The position numbers were made by a program, and so were the translations under genes. Shown piece after piece: positions 1 to 15,045 of a stretch of DNA of 64,000 nucleotides (the first letter of the stretch is position 1; each line of letters opens with the position of its first letter). This DNA comes from Actinacidiphila yanglinensis (GTDB lineage: Bacteria; Actinomycetota; Actinomycetes; Streptomycetales; Streptomycetaceae), in the NCBI RefSeq assembly GCF_900107965.1, contig NZ_FNVU01000002.1, positions 434,001 to 498,000 on the forward strand. The letters run 5' to 3'. Under the pieces are notes generated by a model. The model was not told the DNA's origin. It was given only the letters and a program-made list of their open reading frames with translations, and did no database searches.

Positions 1-468
1 CCCGAGGAGAACGGCGACGGTGGCTTCGAACTCCAGGCGGCCCTGCGCAGCGGCGTCCCCGTCGTGCTGTGGCTGGGCCGGGACGAACTGCCGCCCGGGG
101 ACGCCGGCGCGCGCGCCCCGGAGACCGCCGGACCGGCCGCGGACCCCGGTGCGGACCACGCCACGGAGAGCGGGTCCGGCCCCGGTGGCGCACATTCCCC
201 TGTCGAGGCGGAGGAGCACTTCGAGCGGCTGCTTCGCGACCCTTTAAGGCTTCGTGAGGCCGTGAAAGAATTGAGACTCGAGGCCCAGTCGGACTTCTCG
301 CGGGAACCCCGGGATCCATCGGGAGCCGCGGTGCCGCCGGGCCGTACGCATCACCGCGTCGGACACCGGGTGGTCCTGCTCTGGGACGACCCGACCCGGC
401 CGGTCGAGACGCATGAGCCGCTGTCGGGTCCCGACCGGGGGGACCGGCGAAGGGTGGACGGCCAGTGA
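1..468 (+). CDS. VMAP-C domain protein, C-terminal part (5' end outside window)
   Basis: Only the last 155 codons are visible, open from the first base in frame 1. The segment GVPVVLWLGRDEL near the start of the visible part and VVLLWDDPTRPVE near the end match the C-terminal domain of vWA-MoxR-associated proteins (VMAP-C), thought to act as effector or signalling partners in multi-component vWA/MoxR conflict systems. The central 50 residues are Ala/Pro/Gly-rich and look like a linker. The TGA stop at 466-468 overlaps the GTG start of the MoxR gene, so the two are probably translationally coupled. Codon 244-246 is TTA, which is rare in this genome and normally read by the bldA tRNA. The N-terminal effector domain (often a trypsin-like or TIR-like domain) lies outside, so the activity cannot be stated. 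The FxsC family is an alternative name for such a partner. Confidence 0.75.
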   Translation, partial: PEENGDGGFELQAALRSGVPVVLWLGRDELPPGDAGARAPETAGPAADPGADHATESGSGPGGAHSPVEAEEHFERLLRDPLRLREAVKELRLEAQSDFSREPRDPSGAAVPPGRTHHRVGHRVVLLWDDPTRPVETHEPLSGPDRGDRRRVDGQ

Positions 469-6182: not shown

Positions 6183-8495
6183 CTACGGCGGGTCCGGGGC
6201 CGGTACGGGGGCGGGGACCCGGTCGCCCAGGGCACCTTGGGCGCGGTCAGGGTTGCCCTCCTGGTGCGCGGTGAGCCCGGGGGCCAGCCACGCGGCCACC
6301 TCCTCGGGCGCCGGCGGCGCGCCGTTCCCGGCAAGGGCGCGGGCCGCGGCGTGCACCGCGGCCACCCACTCCGGGGCGGCGCGCAGGGCACGCCGGGCCG
6401 CTCCCGCGGGCACCGTCAGGCCCAGCCCCGCCCACGCGGTGACGTCCCGCGGGTCGCGGTCGATCCGGTCCAGGTAGCCGTCCCGGGCCGCGGCCGTCTC
6501 GCCCGCGGCCCACAGCCGGTCGGCGTGGCGAGTGCCCGCCGGCAGCGCGGGGCTGCTTCCGGCGAGTCGCGCCGGGGCGCTGAAGCGTACCCGGAGCAGC
6601 CCGGCGCGCGGCGACAACACCGGTCGTGCCGGGTGGAGTTCGGCCACCAGCGGCCCGTCCGCGAGCGGCTCGCCGGCCAGCAGCGCGCGGGCGCACCGTT
6701 CGGCCCGCTCACGCGGCGGGCGCAGGTGGCTGAGCCGGTAGAGCATGCGGTGGTCGGCGAGGGCGTCCTGCACCGCGGACTCCGTGGCGGCGGGCACCGG
6801 CGCGCGCAGCAGCGCCCGCAGGGTGTCCTCGACCCGCGCCGTGAACTGCTCGCCCGCCGGGGTCAGCGGTGCGTGCCGCAGCACCGTGGCCAGGCCCTCC
6901 CCGCTTTGGGCCCGGCGCAGCGCGAACTCGAACCGGGCCTCGGCCAGCGGGACTTCAGCGACGGCGGCCGGAGCCTCGGCCGTGACGGCGTGCCAGAACA
7001 GCGCCACCCCGAGGAAGGCGTACGTCCCCTGGAGGATGCCGCGCACCGGGCGCGGATCGGCCCGCCACGGCGAGTGGTGGATCTCGCGGGTGGCGCTGCC
7101 GCGCAGCAACGGCACCAGGTCGTCCAGCGCGCTGAGCTTCACGTGCTGCGATTCGTGCACCAGCGTCGCCGCCAACTGCGCCGCACCCGAAGGGGTGCTC
7201 ATCAGCACCCCGCCGAACGCGTCGGGCGCGCTGCCGCTGAACGCCCGCGCCGTCCCGCGATCCCACAGCGGCGCCAGCGACCGCAGGCAGCCGGCCAGCC
7301 CGGCCGCGTCGACCAGGTCCTGCCCGGCGACCAGTTCCCAGGCGTCGGCGAAGTGTTCCTGCCAGCCGCCGAGCCGGCCGGCCGGCAGCCGCGCGGGCGG
7401 CACCGGCGGGCGCAGGAAGTCGCGCCAGGGGTCGACGTCGTCCACGGTCATCGCGGCCGGGACCTCGCCCGCGGCGCCGTGGCCCGTGGCGTGCAGCCGG
7501 CGCAGTGCCCACCACCCTGGGCCGTCCGCGTCCGGGTCGACCGGTACCGGGTCGCCCCCGCGCCACCTCACCTGGGCGGGAGCACCGTCGAGAAGCCGGA
7601 GGACCTCGGCCGTCTGCCGGTCCGGCAACGGCACCGCGGCCGATCCGGACGTCCCTGCCCGCGGGACGTCCGGATCGGCCGTGCGCCGGCCGGGGCCGGC
7701 CGCGGCCTCCGCGTTCGCGTGGTCGGCCGCCTCCCGCGGTGACGGGACGCGGCCGGTCGCGGGCAGCAGCACGCCGCCGTCCAGTACGGGAACCGGGACG
7801 CGGAAGCGTATCCCCGCCCGGACCGCGGCGGAGGCGGCGAGGGCGAACAGGTAGCCGGCGGCCTCCCAGGGCAGTTCGGGCCGCCCGTTCGCGGCCGGGC
7901 CGTCCGGTCCCGGGCGGCGGTCGGGCCGCCACAGGGCGCGGGAGGCGGTGCCGATCCAGGTGCCCACGTAAGGGTGCATCACCACCTCCTCGACCGCTTG
8001 GGGCGCCACGCGTTCGGCGTCGAGCAGGAGTTGCCAGGCGACCCGCGCGCCGGGCAACGGGGCGAGCAGGTCCGGGCGGTCGAGCAGGCGTACCACCAAG
8101 GCGCGCAGCATGAGCAGGCGGCGGCTGCGCTGGCCCGCGCGCAGGGCGGCGACCGTCGCCGCGTCGCCGCTGCCGCGGGCGAGCTGCCGGAAGTGGTCGG
8201 TGCGGAGCCGGTGTTCGGGCAGCGGCTCCGGGCGGGTGTCCGCCTCACTCGTGCGCGACGGGCCGAACGGAGGTGCCACGTCGCCCGGTCCGGCCGGGCC
8301 GGTGGCGGGGGCGCCCGGATCGGTCGCTGCCACCTGCTGCGGCGGGTCCGTACGGGCGGCGGCGCCGGCGGGGTCTCTCGTGCCTGACCGGGCGGGCGGC
8401 GCGGCCGGGTGCGCCGAACCCGGGGGTCCGGCGGGAAGCCCGCTCACGGAGGGTAACTCGCCGCGCCCCGCGGTGGATCGCCCACCGCGCGTCAT
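6183..8495 (-). CDS. aKG/HExxH-type peptide beta-hydroxylase-like protein
   Basis: This 770-residue protein carries the signature HESQH (HExxH) at residues 447-451 in LVHESQHVKLSALDDL, followed by HHSPWRADPRPVRG and GTYAFLGVALFWH. That arrangement is typical of the HEXXH domain found next to, or fused to, radical SAM FxsB peptide maturases. Members of this group are believed to be iron/2-oxoglutarate-type enzymes that hydroxylate RiPP precursors rather than proteases. The N-terminal 100 residues are Pro/Gly/Ala-rich. No CxxxCxxC radical SAM motif is present, so this is a stand-alone HEXXH protein. The ATG at 8495 is chosen because it overlaps the precursor stop as ATGA. Codon 8456-8454 (Leu14) is TTA. 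The gene converges on the TPR gene with 22 bases between stops. Substrate and chemistry are inferred from family only. Confidence 0.8.
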   Translation of the reverse strand: MTRGGRSTAGRGELPSVSGLPAGPPGSAHPAAPPARSGTRDPAGAAARTDPPQQVAATDPGAPATGPAGPGDVAPPFGPSRTSEADTRPEPLPEHRLRTDHFRQLARGSGDAATVAALRAGQRSRRLLMLRALVVRLLDRPDLLAPLPGARVAWQLLLDAERVAPQAVEEVVMHPYVGTWIGTASRALWRPDRRPGPDGPAANGRPELPWEAAGYLFALAASAAVRAGIRFRVPVPVLDGGVLLPATGRVPSPREAADHANAEAAAGPGRRTADPDVPRAGTSGSAAVPLPDRQTAEVLRLLDGAPAQVRWRGGDPVPVDPDADGPGWWALRRLHATGHGAAGEVPAAMTVDDVDPWRDFLRPPVPPARLPAGRLGGWQEHFADAWELVAGQDLVDAAGLAGCLRSLAPLWDRGTARAFSGSAPDAFGGVLMSTPSGAAQLAATLVHESQHVKLSALDDLVPLLRGSATREIHHSPWRADPRPVRGILQGTYAFLGVALFWHAVTAEAPAAVAEVPLAEARFEFALRRAQSGEGLATVLRHAPLTPAGEQFTARVEDTLRALLRAPVPAATESAVQDALADHRMLYRLSHLRPPRERAERCARALLAGEPLADGPLVAELHPARPVLSPRAGLLRVRFSAPARLAGSSPALPAGTRHADRLWAAGETAAARDGYLDRIDRDPRDVTAWAGLGLTVPAGAARRALRAAPEWVAAVHAAARALAGNGAPPAPEEVAAWLAPGLTAHQEGNPDRAQGALGDRVPAPVPAPDPP

Positions 8496-8698
8496 CCGCG
8501 GGATCCGGTCTCCGGCTCCGCCATGCAGTTGGCGCCGACGTTCTCCGACGAGGCGCCCAGCGTCGGCCGCCGTTCGGTGTCGAGCAGCGTGTCGGTGGCA
8601 CGGTCGAGTACGGCCGCGTCCAGGGAGCCGAGGCCAGCCAGGGTGACACCGGTCAGGTCCACGAGTTCGCAGGCCACTTCGGGTGCCGTCAGATCCAT
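8492..8698 (-). CDS. FxsA-like RiPP precursor peptide, variant core
   Basis: This 68-residue peptide has an FxsA-like leader. The segment ELVDLTGVTLAGLGSLDAAV followed by LDRATDTLLD matches the D-x-L-x-L/LD-x-VL-x-x-A pattern seen upstream of FxSxx-COOH cores. The C-terminal part, SSENVGANCMAEPETGSRG, contains no FxSxx end and no aromatic residue, so a Phe-Ser cyclophane cannot form there. Asn, Asp/Glu and Cys are the obvious modifiable positions for a hydroxylase. A very strong ribosome site (GGAGGAGGGGGAG) stands just before the ATG at 8698, supporting this start over an in-frame ATG at 8740 that would add an Arg-rich leader. The stop overlaps the HExxH start (ATGA), so precursor and enzyme are co-translated. 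That it is a precursor is inferred from size, leader and coupling; it is not shown by similarity search. Confidence 0.7.
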   Translation of the reverse strand: MDLTAPEVACELVDLTGVTLAGLGSLDAAVLDRATDTLLDTERRPTLGASSENVGANCMAEPETGSRG

Positions 8699-8784
8699 GG
8701 CTCTCCCCCTCCTCCGTCGGCGCGCGTCGTCCTCTCTCATGGTGACGCACGGGGCAAGGGTTGCGGAAGACGGACGGCGGACCC

Positions 8785-9324
8785 TCACACGTCGGCGTAC
8801 AGCCAGATCTGCCACGCCAGTACGCCCACGCCGCACAGCTCGAGCACCGACACGACCAGCAGCGCGACCGGGTGATCGGTGTCGGCGCTCCAGTACACGA
8901 CCAGCCCCGCGGCCGCCGTGACGCAGAACGCCAGCAGGTCGACCGCCAGTTGCAGGTACTTGCGGGTGGTGCGGCGCGGGTCGTCGCGGTGCGCGGACTC
9001 CCACCCGAACACCTGGTCCCGGGCGGCCGACAGGGTAGCCAGCCGCGGGGCCAGCCCGGACCGTACGTAGCGGCCGATCGAGGAGATCTTCTCGTCGTTG
9101 ACCAGGTAGGTCCATCCCAGCAGCAGGCACACCGGCGGCAGCACCAGCAGCGCGGCAGGCACTCCCGCCTGCAGCGCGCCCGCCGCGACCGCGGCCACCG
9201 AGGCGAGCATCGCGTACAGCAGGTTGTCCCGGAACCCGATCCGCGCCTGCTGCTCGGCCTTCAGCTGCTGGTACTCCATCAGCAGCAGCTGAGCTTCCGT
9301 CACATCCTGCTCGTCCCGCGCCAT
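8785..9324 (-). CDS. Small integral membrane protein of the FxsA-like locus
   Basis: This 179-residue protein begins with a charged amphipathic segment rich in Gln/Glu (EAQLLLMEYQQLKAEQQARI). It continues with hydrophobic segments at about 33-55 and 56-75, a polar central region with a conserved-looking VFGWESAHRDDPRR stretch, and two more hydrophobic segments at about 128-148 and 153-175. Four membrane spans with both ends in the cytoplasm are likely. It is the first gene of the minus-strand trio, 86 bases upstream of the precursor, so it may export or sense the mature peptide, or give immunity. No transporter or peptidase motif is visible. The start ATG at 9324 is followed by typical GC-biased codons. 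Function unknown. Confidence 0.75.
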   Translation of the reverse strand: MARDEQDVTEAQLLLMEYQQLKAEQQARIGFRDNLLYAMLASVAAVAAGALQAGVPAALLVLPPVCLLLGWTYLVNDEKISSIGRYVRSGLAPRLATLSAARDQVFGWESAHRDDPRRTTRKYLQLAVDLLAFCVTAAAGLVVYWSADTDHPVALLVVSVLELCGVGVLAWQIWLYADV

Positions 9325-9445: not shown

Positions 9446-10696
9446 TCAGCCGGCCGGGCCCGGCCGCAGGACCACCGGGAGGTGCTGGTGGCCGTTGGTG
9501 ATCAGGGACGGCACCCGGGTCAGGGCGCCGGCCGGCACGGCGAGCCGGGCGTCGGGGAAGCGGGCGAAGAAGGCGCTCAGCGCGACCGATCCCTCCAGCC
9601 GGGCCAGCGGGGCACCCAGGCAGAAGTGCACGCCGTGCCCGAAGGCCAGGTGCTCCGGGCCGGGCGCGGCGCGGGTGATGTCGAAGTCCGCCGCGGTGTC
9701 GCCGTGCCAGTCGGGATGGCGGTTGGCGGCGGCGTAGGCGGCGAGGATCGCGTCGCCGGCCGCGATCACCTGCCCGTCGGACAGCGGGATGTCGCGGACC
9801 GCGAACCGCATCGGCAGGTTCTTCACGGCCGGCTCCAGCCGCAGCGTCTCCTCCACGACGCTCGACCAGTCCGCGCCGCCGGACCGCACCAGCTCCAGCT
9901 GCTCCGGGTGGGTCAGCAGCGCGGTGATCGCCTGGTCCAGCAGGTTGACCGTGGTCTCGTAGCCGGCGCTGATCATCAGCAGCAGCGTGTCGCGCAGTTC
10001 GGTCTCGGACAGCGCCGAGCCGTCGCCCTCGTCGTCGCGTGCGGCGATCAGCAGCGAGGTCATGTCGTCGCCGGGCGCGGTCCGCTTGGCGGCGATGAGG
10101 TCGTCGAGCACCCCGTAGAGGCGGATGGTGTTGGCCATCGCCTCCTCGGGGGTGAGCGTGGTGGAGAACACGCCGTCCACCACGGTGCGGAAGTCCGCCT
10201 GTTGCGCCTCGGGCAGGCCCATCAGGTGGCTGATCACCTGGATCGGGATCGGGTACGCGAACAGCTCCCGCAGGTCCGCGGGCGTGCCGGGAGCGTCGGA
10301 GGCCAGCTCGTCGAGGTGGTCGAGCAGACCGGTGACGATCTGCTCGATCCGCTCGCCGAGCGCGGCTATCCGGCGCGCGCTGAAGGCCGGCGCGACCATC
10401 CGGCGCAGCCTGCGGTGGTCGCCGCCGTAGGCGGTGAACATGTTGTGCACCGACACCCACAGCGCCAGCGGCCAGGTCGCGACCGCCTGGTCGTACGCGG
10501 GCCAGTGCTGCCGGCCGTCCTTGGAGACGTCGGGACCGGTGAGGAGTTGCTTCAGCAGGGTCGGGTCGGTGACGGCCCAGGCCGGCACGCCGAGGATGTC
10601 GACGCGGGCGGCGGGGCCTTGCGCGCGCAGCTTCTCGTGCTCGGAGTCCGGGTCGGAACCGGTGGGGTCCAGGACGAGAGGGGTGGGCTGGGACAC
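9446..10696 (-). CDS. Cytochrome P450, CYP154-like, second P450 of conservon
   Basis: This is a 416-residue bacterial class I P450. The I-helix motif is AGYETT, the K-helix EXXR motif is present as ETLR in VVEETLRLEP, and the heme-binding loop is FGHGVHFCLG with the axial cysteine. Conservons often end with one or two P450 genes (CvnE), and a CYP157-CYP154 pair is a common arrangement. This one fits the intact CYP154-like partner. The GTG start at 10696 lies 16 bases after the stop of the upstream P450, so they form one operon. The natural substrate is unknown; related enzymes hydroxylate steroids and macrolides in vitro. Electron donors are not encoded nearby. Confidence 0.9.
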   Translation of the reverse strand: MSQPTPLVLDPTGSDPDSEHEKLRAQGPAARVDILGVPAWAVTDPTLLKQLLTGPDVSKDGRQHWPAYDQAVATWPLALWVSVHNMFTAYGGDHRRLRRMVAPAFSARRIAALGERIEQIVTGLLDHLDELASDAPGTPADLRELFAYPIPIQVISHLMGLPEAQQADFRTVVDGVFSTTLTPEEAMANTIRLYGVLDDLIAAKRTAPGDDMTSLLIAARDDEGDGSALSETELRDTLLLMISAGYETTVNLLDQAITALLTHPEQLELVRSGGADWSSVVEETLRLEPAVKNLPMRFAVRDIPLSDGQVIAAGDAILAAYAAANRHPDWHGDTAADFDITRAAPGPEHLAFGHGVHFCLGAPLARLEGSVALSAFFARFPDARLAVPAGALTRVPSLITNGHQHLPVVLRPGPAG

Positions 10697-10712
10697 GGCA
10701 GGGGTGCTCCGT

Positions 10713-11954
10713 TCAGCTCTGGGGCGCGGGCGGGACGGGGACGGGGGGAAAGCTGACCGGCAGGGCGGCCAGGGCGCGGTGCCAGGGGCCCGGCCGCCAG
10801 GTCAGCTCCTCGACGGGAACGGCCAGATCCATCTCCGGCAGCGCGTCGACGAGGAAGACCAGGGCGGTCTCGGCGATCAGGTAGGCGTGCGACTTGGCCG
10901 GGCAGGCGTGCGGGCCGTTGCTCCAGGCCAGGTGGGCGCGGTTGCCGATCCGCCGGGACAGGTCGGCGCCGATCGCCGGGTCGTTGTTGGAGGCGGCCAT
11001 GCAGATGACGACCGGCTGGTGCGCGGGCAGCCGCACCCCCTCGATGTCCACCGGGCGCGGCGGGTACGTCACGCAGTACGACGCCAGCGGCGGGTCGGTG
11101 AAGAGCAGTTCGTCCAGCGCGTCGCGCACCGACAGGCTGCCGGCGTGCAGGTTCCCCGAGAAGCGGTCGTCGGTGAGCATCAGCCGCAGCGTGTTGGAGA
11201 TCAGGTTGGTGGTCGGCTCGATGCCGGCGCCGTAGAGCGTGACGAGCTGGTGGTCCATCTCCTCGTCGGTGAGCGCCGCCGGGTGCCCGATCAGCCAGCT
11301 GGTGATGTCCGCGGCGGGGGACTCGCGCTTGAGGGCGGTCAGGTCGCGCAGCGCCTGCCCGAGCATCAGGTTGCCCGCGGCGGCGTCCACCCCCTCGAAG
11401 ATCGCGGCCATGCCGTCGGCGACCCGCTGGCCCACCTCGGGCGGGCAGCCCAGCATCTCGTTGAGCACGCGGAAGGCGATCGGCCAGGCGTACTGCGTGA
11501 GCAGGTCCGCCTGGCCGGTGGGGCTGAACCGCGCGACGGTCTCGGCGGCCACCTGCTCCACGGTCGCCCGCAGCTGGTGCTGGTTGACCTTGTCCAGGCT
11601 CGCGGTGTTCGCCGAGCGGTAGCGGTGGTGCTCCTCGGCCGCGGAGCGCAGCGCGTTCGGCCGCCACTCCATCATCGGCTTGACCGGGCAGTCGTCGGGC
11701 ACGTCGCGCTGCCACATCCGGGGGTCGGCCGGGAAGCGCTGCGGGTCGTTGAGGATGCGCAGCGCCTGCGGGTACCCGATGACGAGGGTGGCGGGGATGC
11801 CGGGCGACAACTCCACCGGCACCAGGGGGCCGTACTCGGCCCGCATCCAGTCGTAGGCGCCGTGCGGGTCGGAGGCGAACTCCTGGGTGTACAGCGGGAC
11901 CCGGCCCGATACGGGGGCGGCGGGCGCGGTGTCGGCGGGGGGCGGAGACGTCAC
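10713..11954 (-). CDS. Cytochrome P450-like protein, CYP157-like, EXXR motif missing
   Basis: This 413-residue P450-fold protein has a degenerate K-helix. Where EXXR is expected it reads LDELLFTDPP, so the invariant Arg is absent. The heme loop is WSNGPHACPAK, retaining the Cys but not the usual Phe and final Gly. The I-helix reads YGAGIEPTTNLI. CYP157 proteins of Streptomyces conservons are known for an altered EXXR motif, and the neighbouring intact P450 is the usual companion. The GTG start at 11954 overlaps the stop of the GTPase gene (GTGA). Whether it is catalytic on its own is uncertain; a role as partner or heme sensor within the conservon complex is possible. Confidence 0.85.
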   Translation of the reverse strand: MTSPPPADTAPAAPVSGRVPLYTQEFASDPHGAYDWMRAEYGPLVPVELSPGIPATLVIGYPQALRILNDPQRFPADPRMWQRDVPDDCPVKPMMEWRPNALRSAAEEHHRYRSANTASLDKVNQHQLRATVEQVAAETVARFSPTGQADLLTQYAWPIAFRVLNEMLGCPPEVGQRVADGMAAIFEGVDAAAGNLMLGQALRDLTALKRESPAADITSWLIGHPAALTDEEMDHQLVTLYGAGIEPTTNLISNTLRLMLTDDRFSGNLHAGSLSVRDALDELLFTDPPLASYCVTYPPRPVDIEGVRLPAHQPVVICMAASNNDPAIGADLSRRIGNRAHLAWSNGPHACPAKSHAYLIAETALVFLVDALPEMDLAVPVEELTWRPGPWHRALAALPVSFPPVPVPPAPQS

Positions 11955-12628
11955 GGGCGGGACTCCAGTTGGCGGGCGGACAGATATTCGACAAGCGTGA
12001 TCAGGGCGCGCACGCACGAGTCCCGGTCGCGGGCGTCGCAGACCGTCAGCGGCGTGGACCCGTCCAGGTCCAGGGCCTGGCGCACCTCGTCCAGCGGGTA
12101 CTCGACCGCGTCGTCGAAGCGGTTGATCGCCACCGCGTACGGCGTGCCGTACTCCTCCAGCAGGTCCAGCACGTCGTGGCTGTGGTCCAGGTCCCGGGTG
12201 TCGACCAGGACCAGCGCGCCGAGCGCCCCGTCGGCCAGCCCCTCCCACAGCGGCCGGAACCGCGCCTGGCCGGGCGTGCCGAACAGGTACAGCACCAGGC
12301 TCTCGTTGAGGTGCAGCCGGCCGAAGTCCATGGCGACGGTGGTGGTGGTCTTCTGCGGGGTGCCGCGCAGGTCGTCCACGCCGACGCTGGCCTCGGTCAT
12401 GGACTCGTCCATCCGCAGCACCAGTGGTGCGACGGCGCCCACCAGCGTGGTCTTGCCGACCCCGAACGGCCCGGTGATCAGCAGCTTCGCCGAGCGGGTG
12501 ACGGTGGGCGGGTGGTACTCGAAGCCGAGGTCGGGAGCCGTGTCGTGCGGGCCGGGCAGGTCCGTCCCGCCGGACAGGGCGGTGCCGCCGCCGGACGGGC
12601 CGGGGTCAGGCGATGGAGCGGAGGCCAT
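11951..12628 (-). CDS. cvnD: Conservon ATP/GTP-binding protein CvnD
   Basis: This is a 225-residue small Ras/Mgl-type GTPase of the conservon class. The P-loop GPFGVGKTT is at residues 53-61, VDTRDLDHSHD gives a switch/G3 region, and AINRFDDAVEYP supplies an NKxD-like specificity motif. The first 40 residues are Gly/Pro-rich. CvnD proteins work at the membrane with CvnA, B and C in a complex resembling a eukaryotic G-protein-coupled switch. The ATG start at 12628 lies inside the end of cvnC (23-base overlap), and the stop overlaps the P450 start, so translation of the cluster is chained. Confidence 0.92.
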   Translation of the reverse strand: MASAPSPDPGPSGGGTALSGGTDLPGPHDTAPDLGFEYHPPTVTRSAKLLITGPFGVGKTTLVGAVAPLVLRMDESMTEASVGVDDLRGTPQKTTTTVAMDFGRLHLNESLVLYLFGTPGQARFRPLWEGLADGALGALVLVDTRDLDHSHDVLDLLEEYGTPYAVAINRFDDAVEYPLDEVRQALDLDGSTPLTVCDARDRDSCVRALITLVEYLSARQLESRP

Positions 12629-12956
12629 GCAGCACTTCCTTCAGCAGGTCGGTGGTCGGCGCGTCGGCGCGGGAGCGGCGGACCGGGGCGGCGAGGTGGC
12701 CGGAGTCCATCAGGCCGGAGACCAGGATGCGGACCACCGAGGCCGGCAGTTCGAGCCCGGCGGCGATCTCGGCCACCGCGAGCACCCCGCCCCGGCACAC
12801 CGCGAACACCCGTCGTGCGTCGGGCTCCAGGCCCTGCAGCGGGGAGTCCGCGGCGATCACCAGGGTCTCCAGGCGCACGTCGCGGGAGGGACGGCTGCGC
12901 CCGCCGGTGCGGACATAGGGCCTGACCACATCCGGGTCACGCCGCGGACCGCTCAC
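12606..12956 (-). CDS. cvnC: Conservon DUF742 protein CvnC
   Basis: This 116-residue protein of the DUF742 family has the features DVVRPYVRTGGR near the N-terminus and EIAAGLELPASVVRILVSGL, followed by SGHLAAP, in the centre. The latter is a winged-helix-like segment typical of DUF742. DUF742 proteins bind the conservon GTPase and probably regulate it. The GTG start at 12956 is chosen from the GTGA overlap with the cvnB stop. A longer upstream reading exists but runs over the cvnB coding region and is not needed. Confidence 0.92.
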   Translation of the reverse strand: MSGPRRDPDVVRPYVRTGGRSRPSRDVRLETLVIAADSPLQGLEPDARRVFAVCRGGVLAVAEIAAGLELPASVVRILVSGLMDSGHLAAPVRRSRADAPTTDLLKEVLHGLRSIA

Positions 12957-13387
12957 CTCGGCCGACCACCCTCGCCGGCCGGCCGCCGCTCCCTGCTGAC
13001 GAGTTCGTGACCCACCCGCTGTGACAGCGCGTTCATCCGCTCGGTGATCATGCCGATGTCGCCGTCGAGGTCGGCACACACCGCCAGCAGCGAGTTCTCC
13101 GCGGCGGCGGAGGTCAGCCCGATCCACTGGTCGGTCTCGATCAGGTGCTGGCGCACCGCGTTGGGCGCCCCCCACGCACCGGTGACCTCGGCCCAGGCCA
13201 GCCCGGCCGCCCGCAGTGCCGCCGTCACGGCCGCCAGCTTGTCGCCGGTGTCCTTGTCGATGGTCTTGGTGTACGAGCTGAGCAGGCCGTCGGAGGTCAT
13301 GTGGACCGCGAACCGCACCCCCGGGCAGTTGCCGAGGTGCTCGTCGAGCAGCCACCCCAGTGCGTTGTCGTCGTGAGCTTTCAACAT
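12953..13387 (-). CDS. cvnB: Conservon roadblock/LC7 protein CvnB
   Basis: This 144-residue roadblock/LC7-domain protein has the sequence LDEHLGNCPGVRFAVHMTSD near the start and SLLAVCADLDGDIGMI in the middle, which follow the family pattern. The C-terminal helix contains the ERMNALSQRV type sequence. Roadblock proteins act as GTPase-activating or scaffolding partners of MglA/CvnD-like GTPases. The ATG start at 13387 is two bases after the cvnA stop; it is preferred to upstream alternatives because those lie within cvnA. Confidence 0.93.
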   Translation of the reverse strand: MLKAHDDNALGWLLDEHLGNCPGVRFAVHMTSDGLLSSYTKTIDKDTGDKLAAVTAALRAAGLAWAEVTGAWGAPNAVRQHLIETDQWIGLTSAAAENSLLAVCADLDGDIGMITERMNALSQRVGHELVSRERRPAGEGGRPR

Positions 13388-13389
13388 GG

Positions 13390-15045
13390 TCAGGAATCGC
13401 CCTTCGAAGTGGCCGACGTGTTCTCCTGCACGTCCGGTGCGCCCGACGTGCCCGGCCGGCCCGAGCCGTTGCCGTGGTCCGTCGCGTCCTGCGGCGCACG
13501 CTCCGCACCCGCGGCCGACCAGCCCTCCGCGGCCGCCGGCGCCGAGGGCGCCCGGCCGCGGCGGGTGCCGTCGGCCCACGCGGCGGCGATGTCCGGCCGG
13601 CCCGGCCGCGCCTCGCCCACCGGCGCCGCCGGGGCGGGGGCGGCGGTCTGCGGCCGGCGCCGGCGCCGGGTCAGCCCGCTGGCCGTGGTGGGCTGACCCG
13701 CGGGAGCCGGACCGTCCTGGCGCGCGTGGTGCGGGCCGTCCTCGCGCCCCTCGTGGCCGTACGCGGGCAGCGCCGTCCAGGGCTGCGGCTCCTGGGCCGT
13801 CCGCACCGGCTGCGCGCTCGGTGCGGCCTGCCCGGAGTGGCCCGAGTCGCCGGGATAGCCCTGCGGGCCGGCGGCGTACCCCTGCCCGGGGCCGTACGCC
13901 TGCTCGCTGCCGGGGGCCGGCACGTGGCCCGCCTGCACGACCGGCGCCGAGGTGAGCAGCGCGGCGGGGACGAACACCAGGGCCCGGGTGCCGCCGAAGA
14001 GGTTGGGCGCTTCGAGGTCGATCCGGAAGCCGTAGCGCGCCGCGAGCTGGGCCGCGACCCGGAATCCGGTCTGCGGGTACGCGCCGAGCGCGTGGATGTC
14101 CAGCGGCTGCTTGCCGGTGAGGATCTCCCGGGCCCGCTCCAGCTGTTCGGGGCTCATCTGCAGGCCGGCGTCGTCCACCAGCATCGTCACGCCGTTGTGC
14201 CCGGTGCGGAAGGACACCTCCGCGTAGGAGGTCGGCGGGGCGTAGCGCACCGCGTTGTCGAGCAGGATCGCGAGGGTGTGCACCAGCGCCTCGACCGCGC
14301 GCGGCACCACGGCCTGGTCCAGCTCCTGCGCCCGCACCCGCTCGTAGTTCTGGATCCGGCCCATCGCGGCGCGCGCGATGTCGGTGAACTCGGTGGCCGG
14401 CAGCCGCCGGCCGAGGGTGCCGCCGGCCAGCACCATGTAGCCCTGGGCGACGCGCAGCATCTGCTGGGAGGTGTGGTCGATCTCCATCAGCGTCGCATAC
14501 GCCTCGTCGCTGTGGTGCCGCCGCACGCCCACGCTGACCTGGTCGGCGAGTTCGGCGCCGAGGTTCACCAGGGCGGAGGCGAAGGTCAGGACGGCGGCGC
14601 GAGTCGCGTCGCGGGCGTCGTCGTGGGCCTGCTCCACCTGGCGGTCGGCCGCGGCCTGGGTGTCGCGGCGGGTCTGCCGGACCAACGCGGTGTGCCCGGC
14701 GACCAGTTCCTCGATGCGCTGCGCGGCGGGGGTGCCGTTCAGCGGCTGGGGCAGCACGAACTCGACCTCGCGGCCCTCGCCCGGCTCCAGCGCCGCGGCG
14801 GCCGCCTCGGCCAGGCCGGTGGAGGCGAGGTAGCCCAGCGCGTCCTCCAACGCCCGCTGCCGGTCGGCGAGTTGGCGCACCCGTTCCTGCTCGGCCAGCA
14901 ACGTGGCCTGGTTCTGCGCGTGTTGCTGCTCGACCTGCCGCTGCCGGGCGTGGGCGATCCGGCGGAAGCGTACGGCCGCGCCGCAGGCGGCCAGAGCGAC
15001 GACCAGCAGCAGGGCAGCGGCCGCCTCCTGTATCAGAGTACTCAT
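13390..15045 (-). CDS. cvnA: Conservon sensor histidine kinase-like protein CvnA
   Basis: This 551-residue membrane sensor has one N-terminal membrane helix at about residues 7-26. It is followed by a long charged coiled-coil rich in Arg/Gln/Glu and a DHp-like region (RIQNYERVRAQELDQA). The HATPase_c domain has an N-box HTLAILLDNAVRYAPP and the segment LVDDAGLQM in the position of a G1 box. No clear phospho-acceptor His in an H-box is visible, as is usual for CvnA proteins. The C-terminal 170 residues are Pro/Gly/Gln-rich and disordered. It is the first gene of the conservon and presumably receives the signal at the membrane that is passed to CvnB, C and D. A sigma70-type promoter lies about 340 bases upstream. 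Confidence 0.92.
   Translation of the reverse strand: MSTLIQEAAAALLLVVALAACGAAVRFRRIAHARQRQVEQQHAQNQATLLAEQERVRQLADRQRALEDALGYLASTGLAEAAAAALEPGEGREVEFVLPQPLNGTPAAQRIEELVAGHTALVRQTRRDTQAAADRQVEQAHDDARDATRAAVLTFASALVNLGAELADQVSVGVRRHHSDEAYATLMEIDHTSQQMLRVAQGYMVLAGGTLGRRLPATEFTDIARAAMGRIQNYERVRAQELDQAVVPRAVEALVHTLAILLDNAVRYAPPTSYAEVSFRTGHNGVTMLVDDAGLQMSPEQLERAREILTGKQPLDIHALGAYPQTGFRVAAQLAARYGFRIDLEAPNLFGGTRALVFVPAALLTSAPVVQAGHVPAPGSEQAYGPGQGYAAGPQGYPGDSGHSGQAAPSAQPVRTAQEPQPWTALPAYGHEGREDGPHHARQDGPAPAGQPTTASGLTRRRRRPQTAAPAPAAPVGEARPGRPDIAAAWADGTRRGRAPSAPAAAEGWSAAGAERAPQDATDHGNGSGRPGTSGAPDVQENTSATSKGDS

Follow-up and report, generated by a model that had tools for sequence, protein, structure and literature searches.

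An FxsA-like precursor and a predicted alpha-KG-HExxH oxygenase without a neighbouring radical SAM gene in a VMAP-MoxR-vWA system of Actinacidiphila yanglinensis

The precursor and enzyme genes and their setting

We analysed a 64,000-nucleotide stretch of the Actinacidiphila yanglinensis genome (contig NZ_FNVU01000002.1, positions 434,001 to 498,000; hereafter the window), in which the gene of a small FxsA-like peptide directly precedes that of a HExxH enzyme on the minus strand. A preliminary description of the sequence had read this pair as a precursor and a lone hydroxylase without a radical S-adenosylmethionine (SAM) enzyme, possibly a stripped-down class of ribosomally synthesized and post-translationally modified peptide (RiPP). 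Both open reading frames (ORFs) were recovered as described there, i.e. a 770-residue protein with HESQH at residues 447-451 and a 68-residue precursor, overlapping by ATGA. The genome (9.59 Mb, 43 contigs, 99.99% complete) encodes two HExxH enzymes.

The precursor gene is preceded by a ribosome-binding stretch that was graded strong by eye. The GC content of third codon positions climbs from 0.73 to 0.95 at this gene, and GC by codon position is coding-like. The peptide ends in ...NCMAEPETGSRG and has no FxSxx end; its predicted leader, core and tail are given in Table 1.

The enzyme scores 146.1 bits with TIGR04267, the profile of the alpha-ketoglutarate (alpha-KG)-HExxH peptide beta-hydroxylases (cut-off 40). 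Residues H447, E448 and H451 are identical in all 76 rows of the system as well as in four of four FxsBH/FxsH rows, and a WRxDxRP block common to the window enzyme, SjiH and ChlH is retained in nearly all of the 76. The predicted fold is that of ChlBHExxH (8s5f) and SjiH (22nu/22ob), and in the model the HExxH and WRxDxRP residues match those of these solved family members. In 22nu/22ob the molecule carries the label radical SAM core domain-containing protein; the literature searched yielded no paper that names SjiH. Based on family profile, conserved residues and predicted fold, the window enzyme is assigned to the alpha-KG-HExxH hydroxylases and is probably not an ordinary metalloprotease, and we rank a metalloprotease reading below that of an oxygenase. 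Hydroxylation is thus its likely function, as predicted from the sequence. Compared with ChlBHExxH and SjiH the window enzyme is free-standing, with an extra C-terminal helical part (residues ~595-747 in the model). A Nature Chemistry paper of 2024 is said to treat fused radical SAM/alpha-KG-HExxH proteins.

Three starts were considered for the enzyme. In the public gene call (P0001, 716 aa) this protein starts only at residue 55, and the structure model shows no ordered fold for residues 4-86. In the nearest named relative, Actinacidiphila guanduensis (L038), the enzyme start overlaps the precursor stop as GTGA, so that the ATGA start at 8495 is favoured, though not settled. Residue 494 is Phe (YAF) in 72 of the 76 system rows and also in ChlH, and His (YAH) in the four FxsBH/FxsH rows.

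The preliminary description had also placed the pair in a vWA/MoxR/TPR system, and domain matches were obtained for all three parts and, in addition, for VMAP. The VMAP gene scores 138.8 bits for VMAP-C, 104.3 for VMAP-M0 and 31.1 for EAD2. The N-terminal WWVYRG and PPWRTF of the MoxR protein agree with VMAP-MoxR motifs quoted in the accessible text of Kaur et al. (2020, PMC7159879). The large fusion protein matches NF041121 (345.2 bits, the SAV_2336 domain) and NF040586 (807.5 bits) together with NB-ARC and TPR_12; the vWA nature of the SAV_2336 domain was judged by eye (DTSAS) and from what could be seen of PMC7159879. All components of the VMAP ternary system (VMAP, MoxR and vWA) are therefore present, as are those of its peptide-processing unit (HExxH enzyme, small peptide and AP-ATPase-TPR). 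Judged by these domains, the setting is a predicted bacterial conflict system, likely an immune one. A search against the PADLOC models gave no match for the HExxH protein, the precursor, the vWA-NB-ARC-TPR protein, the 179-aa protein next to the precursor or VMAP; MoxR had weak AAA hits only, and the phosphorylase-EAD2 protein matched models of the effector type.

Table 1. Features of the locus, in window positions unless another coordinate system is named
Feature	Position	Strand	Basis or remark
Predicted alpha-KG-HExxH oxygenase, up to 770 aa	6183..8495	minus	start at 8495, 8333 or 8279
HESQH motif, residues 447-451	7143..7157	minus	H447, E448, H451 conserved
Precursor gene, 68 aa, FxsA-like leader and Cys-ended core	8492..8698	minus	ORF, ribosome-binding stretch, conservation
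Tail of 10 residues behind Cys, possible follower	8495..8524	minus	tail length 0 to 10 among 23 Cys rows
Predicted core RPTLGASSENVGANC, residues 44-58, without aromatic residue	8525..8569	minus	PPT/RPT...Cys type in 22 relatives
Predicted leader, residues 1-43	8570..8698	minus	ELVDLTGVTLAGL block common to relatives
Ribosome-binding stretch ggaggagggggag ahead of precursor	8702..8714	minus	by eye
VMAP gene, 3' end	1..468	plus	whole gene L003:2789-4468, genome C25:432789-434468
MoxR-type AAA+ ATPase, 391 aa	465..1640	plus	AAA_5 23.7 bits, cut-off 22
vWA (SAV_2336)-NB-ARC-TPR fusion, 1525 aa	1583..6160	plus	converges on HExxH gene
Canonical fxs locus (L002)	C25:338001-348000		~95-100 kb upstream on same contig
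Phosphorylase-superfamily protein fused to EAD2	L003:1279-2493, genome C25:431279-432493		precedes the EAD2-VMAP gene
179-aa protein, membrane protein by eye (hydrophobic stretches)	8785..9324	minus	linked in 13 of 78 loci (tblastn)

Conservation of the pair, its leader and its core

We then compared 78 named actinobacterial loci, representing the best 80 of 242 relatives from a contig scan with an alignment, with flanks of at most 10 kb, less where a contig ended. A contig scan with the single HExxH protein returned no relative, and among plasmids nothing beyond partial matches in four records was obtained; a further search covered 35 genomes of the genus. The NB-ARC-TPR part is present in 75 of the 78 loci, the vWA part in 68 and MoxR in 58. 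Intact precursors, small ORFs with the same leader pattern, were found in 76 of 77 testable related loci, since one locus (L056) ends at a contig edge. They lie no more than 0.6 kb upstream of the HExxH gene in 73 loci and elsewhere on the same strand in three (L076, L088, L103). The leader pattern used to choose ORFs was drafted with the initial examples already in view, and some few rows had to be chosen by hand among the candidates. Conservation at this level excludes a chance ORF. The remaining locus, L057 (Streptomyces violaceusniger NBRC 13459), has a broken precursor frame and a short HExxH frame (426 residues) in the deposited contig, reflecting sequencing error or decay.

A profile of the 77 intact precursors, including that of the window, ranks nine of nine canonical FxsA peptides above 2000 shuffled sequences (14.6-23.9 bits; best shuffle 9.1). 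These nine comprise the FxsA of the same genome and eight taken by pattern from 25 genus loci. As judged from these profile scores, the precursors of the system have a leader related to FxsA, a relationship that applies to the family as a whole rather than to the window precursor taken singly, and the earlier description of the peptide as FxsA-like holds in this sense.

By C-terminal sequence we divided the 77 precursors into classes of our own definition: 33 RxD, 23 Cys, 3 YNGSFP, 3 GGxxS, 3 LITC and 12 other. Cores of the Cys type start with PPT, or with RPT, PAT, PPM, PVPL or PEPL, and run for 12-15 residues through the Cys, behind which 0-10 residues follow; the tail is absent in 11 of the 23 rows. 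Their composition is mainly Ser, Ala, Gly, Asn and Thr (a tally that took in L057). FxsB-type cyclophanes require an aromatic residue. None of the 23 Cys-type cores contains F, W or Y, while 17 of the 33 RxD ends have one within the last 14 residues. In the enzyme tree 21 Cys rows, including the window and L057 (whose label derives from a wrongly joined precursor row), form one clade together with one untestable row, with a value of 100 in the Shimodaira-Hasegawa-like approximate likelihood ratio test (SH-aLRT); the Cys rows L060, L077 and L110 fall in a second clade. Outside the window, the 23 Cys-type loci (L057 counted) all carry the vWA-NB-ARC-TPR gene on the strand opposite to the enzyme; MoxR is present in 21, VMAP in 21 and FxsB in none.

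The Cys-ended, aromatic-free core type appears to be new, as does the reading of the enzyme as a likely oxygenase in place of a peptidase. The core type is not one of the four peptide types named in the accessible text of PMC7159879, and no description of it was found in the literature searched, with most subscription papers and supplements out of reach. Three precursors ending in PLITC have a second Cys ahead (L070, L106 and L112, from Nocardia and Lentzea) and are linked to HExxH and vWA-NB-ARC-TPR genes.

Radical SAM genes near and far

The preliminary description had noted no radical SAM gene nearby and had suggested searching further upstream for a radical SAM/SPASM gene. None lies just outside the window. 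A PF04055 search of the genome gave 22 matches, 21 of them over the cut-off, and placed no radical SAM gene within 90 kb of the unit. The only one on the contig lies ~91 kb ahead of the first window position, with ~97 kb separating it from the HExxH gene, and is an FxsB (425.9 bits, cut-off 370). It belongs to a canonical fxs locus that also encodes a SAV_2336 protein, an FxsA ending in WGFDNDTP and a second, separate HExxH enzyme, so that the same genome has a canonical FxsA-FxsB-HExxH locus beside the radical-SAM-free unit of the window. A protein further downstream in this locus aligns to the NB-ARC-TPR part of the window protein and, by its sequence, may have a TIR-like N-terminus.

With the 22 radical SAM frames of this genome (21 with CxxxCxxC) as queries, no match at E 1e-6 was obtained in 76 of the 78 loci. 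FxsB is present in two loci, L074 and L081, at distances of ~4 kb and ~8 kb from the enzyme gene. At the level of whole genomes, FxsB over the cut-off was found in 17 of 75 carriers of unstated completeness (6/40 and 11/35) and was not found in the other 58, where other radical SAM proteins match weakly; the genomes of L056 and L093 lay outside this search. Of the 23 Cys-type relatives (L057 counted), three have FxsB over the cut-off elsewhere in the genome (L038, L047 and L060), and L053 has a partial match only.

Proposed chemistry, competing readings and neighbouring genes

Units of this kind have been described before. In the accessible text of their survey, Kaur et al. (2020, PMC7159879) put at ~20% the share of actinobacterial VMAP systems that include a small variable protein together with a zincin-like metallopeptidase, and report the same for most FtsH systems; the FxSxx type adds a SPASM radical SAM gene and the FtsH type another radical SAM gene. 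They took the enzyme for a peptidase, and saw in the peptide either a toxin or a signal. The RxD and acidic types of that survey resemble the window in a HExxH enzyme with a small variable peptide and no radical SAM, and in a fusion of vWA with AP-ATPase (NB-ARC)-TPR adjoining VMAP and MoxR. The window differs from them in its RPT...Cys core, which is neither FxSxx, RxD nor acidic. It follows the fused-vWA layout, and the fxs locus of the same genome resembles the FxSxx layout. Relying on the genes around it and on its connection with FxSxx, we identify the zincin-like enzyme of the survey with the family of the window enzyme, other members of which were later proven to be iron/alpha-KG oxygenases (PMC12636437, PMC13060819, as far as accessible); the enzyme read as a peptidase in 2020 is hence more likely an oxygenase. 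Compared with FxsA-FxsB-FxsH loci, the window has in common an FxsA-like leader, a HExxH enzyme, a SAV_2336 vWA and NB-ARC-TPR proteins, but lacks FxsB, the core aromatic and the FxSxx end, and its NB-ARC part is fused to vWA where it is separate there. The pair thus resembles a known peptide-tailoring pathway in simpler form.

Free-standing alpha-KG-HExxH enzymes acting on RiPP precursors are likewise in print, namely PflC/PosC, PesO and BipH (PMC12636437, PMC13060819, PMC12707348). Like the window enzyme they are encoded apart from a radical SAM domain, but their clusters carry multinuclear non-heme iron-dependent oxidative (MNIO) or other tailoring enzymes, and the accessible text of these papers does not mention a VMAP-MoxR-vWA setting. 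Of the stripped-down RiPP class proposed earlier, the radical-SAM-free unit within a vWA/MoxR/TPR system stands, while its standing as a new class limited to this locus does not.

We consider it rather probable that the window encodes a radical-SAM-free unit in which the alpha-KG-HExxH enzyme oxidises the Cys-ended core of the adjoining FxsA-like peptide within the VMAP-MoxR-vWA-NB-ARC-TPR system. The genes, the enzyme family, the predicted fold, the conservation of pair and setting, the failure to find FxsB over the cut-off in most of the carrier genomes searched, and the aromatic-free core form the basis of this proposal. The leader would dock onto the oxygenase, with iron bound by H447 and H451 and possibly by D480 as candidate third ligand, and alpha-KG presumably held by R478 and R482. 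Hydroxylation by family members is reported on Asp, His, Phe, Gln and Pro (PMC13060819), and PosC cuts at Ala/Gly but acts on larger residues by beta-hydroxylation (PMC12636437, both in their accessible parts). Candidate sites are therefore Pro-Thr, the run of Asn/Ser and the positions with Ala/Gly. Beta-hydroxylation could fall on Pro or Thr of RPT or on Asn or Ser ahead of Cys, possibly alongside oxidative removal of the tail, and no cyclophane would be formed. Given its setting, the modified peptide may be an effector, or a signal, linked to an NB-ARC-TPR protein that is itself gated by MoxR and VMAP.

Several observations weigh against this proposal. The oxygenase activity of the window enzyme is a prediction from its sequence, and the 2020 survey, as far as seen, predicts a peptidase. 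The window precursor is unmatched by the FxSxx profile TIGR04268 at E up to 10 (as are those of L038, L042 and L048), and with neither this match nor a C-terminal FxSxx it falls outside FxsA proper; the canonical FxsA of the same genome scores 39.3 bits, and the RxD relatives L080 and L065 reach 17.5 and 13.8 bits, both under the cut-off of 28. In an earlier draw with eight canonical FxsA, one of 2000 shuffles reached 14.4 bits, within 0.2 bits of the weakest. Constraint on 13 Cys precursors is modest, with a ratio of non-synonymous to synonymous polymorphism (pN/pS) of 0.50 over the first 42 residues and 0.67 over the rest. Finally, FxsB is encoded in this genome and was detected in 17 of the 75 carriers, which leaves a remote chance of action in trans.

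Two alternatives concern cleavage. A zincin-like peptidase might cut the precursor and free a C-terminal peptide as toxin or signal, as stated for such units in PMC7159879; the proteolysis by PflC when the leader is missing, reported in the accessible text of PMC12636437, and the variable tail length behind the Cys would fit this. Because the enzyme has the family profile and predicted fold of an alpha-KG oxygenase and the WRxDxRP block is kept, we regard it as unlikely. The other is oxidative backbone cleavage, in which a small residue is alpha-hydroxylated. It could accompany side-chain hydroxylation or take its place, and would trim the follower or core as in PflC/PosC. The Ala/Gly preference of PosC, cores rich in Ala, Gly and Ser, and tails of 0 to 10 residues are consistent with it, but the tail-free rows and the absence of an ARMD-like motif from the Cys-type rows make this improbable, too.

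The FxsB of the canonical locus ~97 kb away could also act in trans on the window peptide, in which case the unit would not function radical-SAM-free. The absence of FxsB hits over the cut-off from 58 of 75 carrier genomes, its low count among Cys-type relatives and the missing aromatic in 23 of 23 cores argue strongly against this. Equally remote is an enzyme that is no longer catalytic and binds the peptide as a sensor or chaperone within the ternary system: NCBIfam does hold an inactivated FxsBH form (NF040587), but the window protein scores 68.3 bits with it, far under the cut-off of 225, and its HExxH and WRxDxRP residues are retained.

Beyond oxidation of the core, we tentatively suggest, as a possibility with the odds against it, a hydroxylation-only RiPP class guided by FxsA-type leaders, whose Cys-ended oxidised peptides would be dedicated intracellular signals or effectors that turn on or off an NB-ARC-TPR immune protein gated by MoxR and VMAP. 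If true, a RiPP enzyme would be built into a bacterial circuit resembling nucleotide-binding leucine-rich repeat (NLR) immunity. The window unit itself sets an FxsA-type leader and a HExxH oxygenase apart from radical SAM chemistry. Consisting of one substrate gene and one enzyme gene, and occurring in dozens of variants among named actinobacteria, it provides a handle on the role of the VMAP-MoxR-vWA peptide unit. It also ties RiPP chemistry to NB-ARC (plant-NLR-like) immunity in bacteria in a way that can be tested.

The 179-aa protein beside the precursor matched no family in the library searches. Its gene is linked to the Cys-type system and adjoins either the precursor or the phosphorylase-EAD2 gene. 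Further on, positions 9446-15045 of the window by eye hold two cytochrome P450 genes and one each of small GTPase, DUF742-like, roadblock-like and sensor-kinase-like genes, an arrangement that resembles an actinobacterial conservon.
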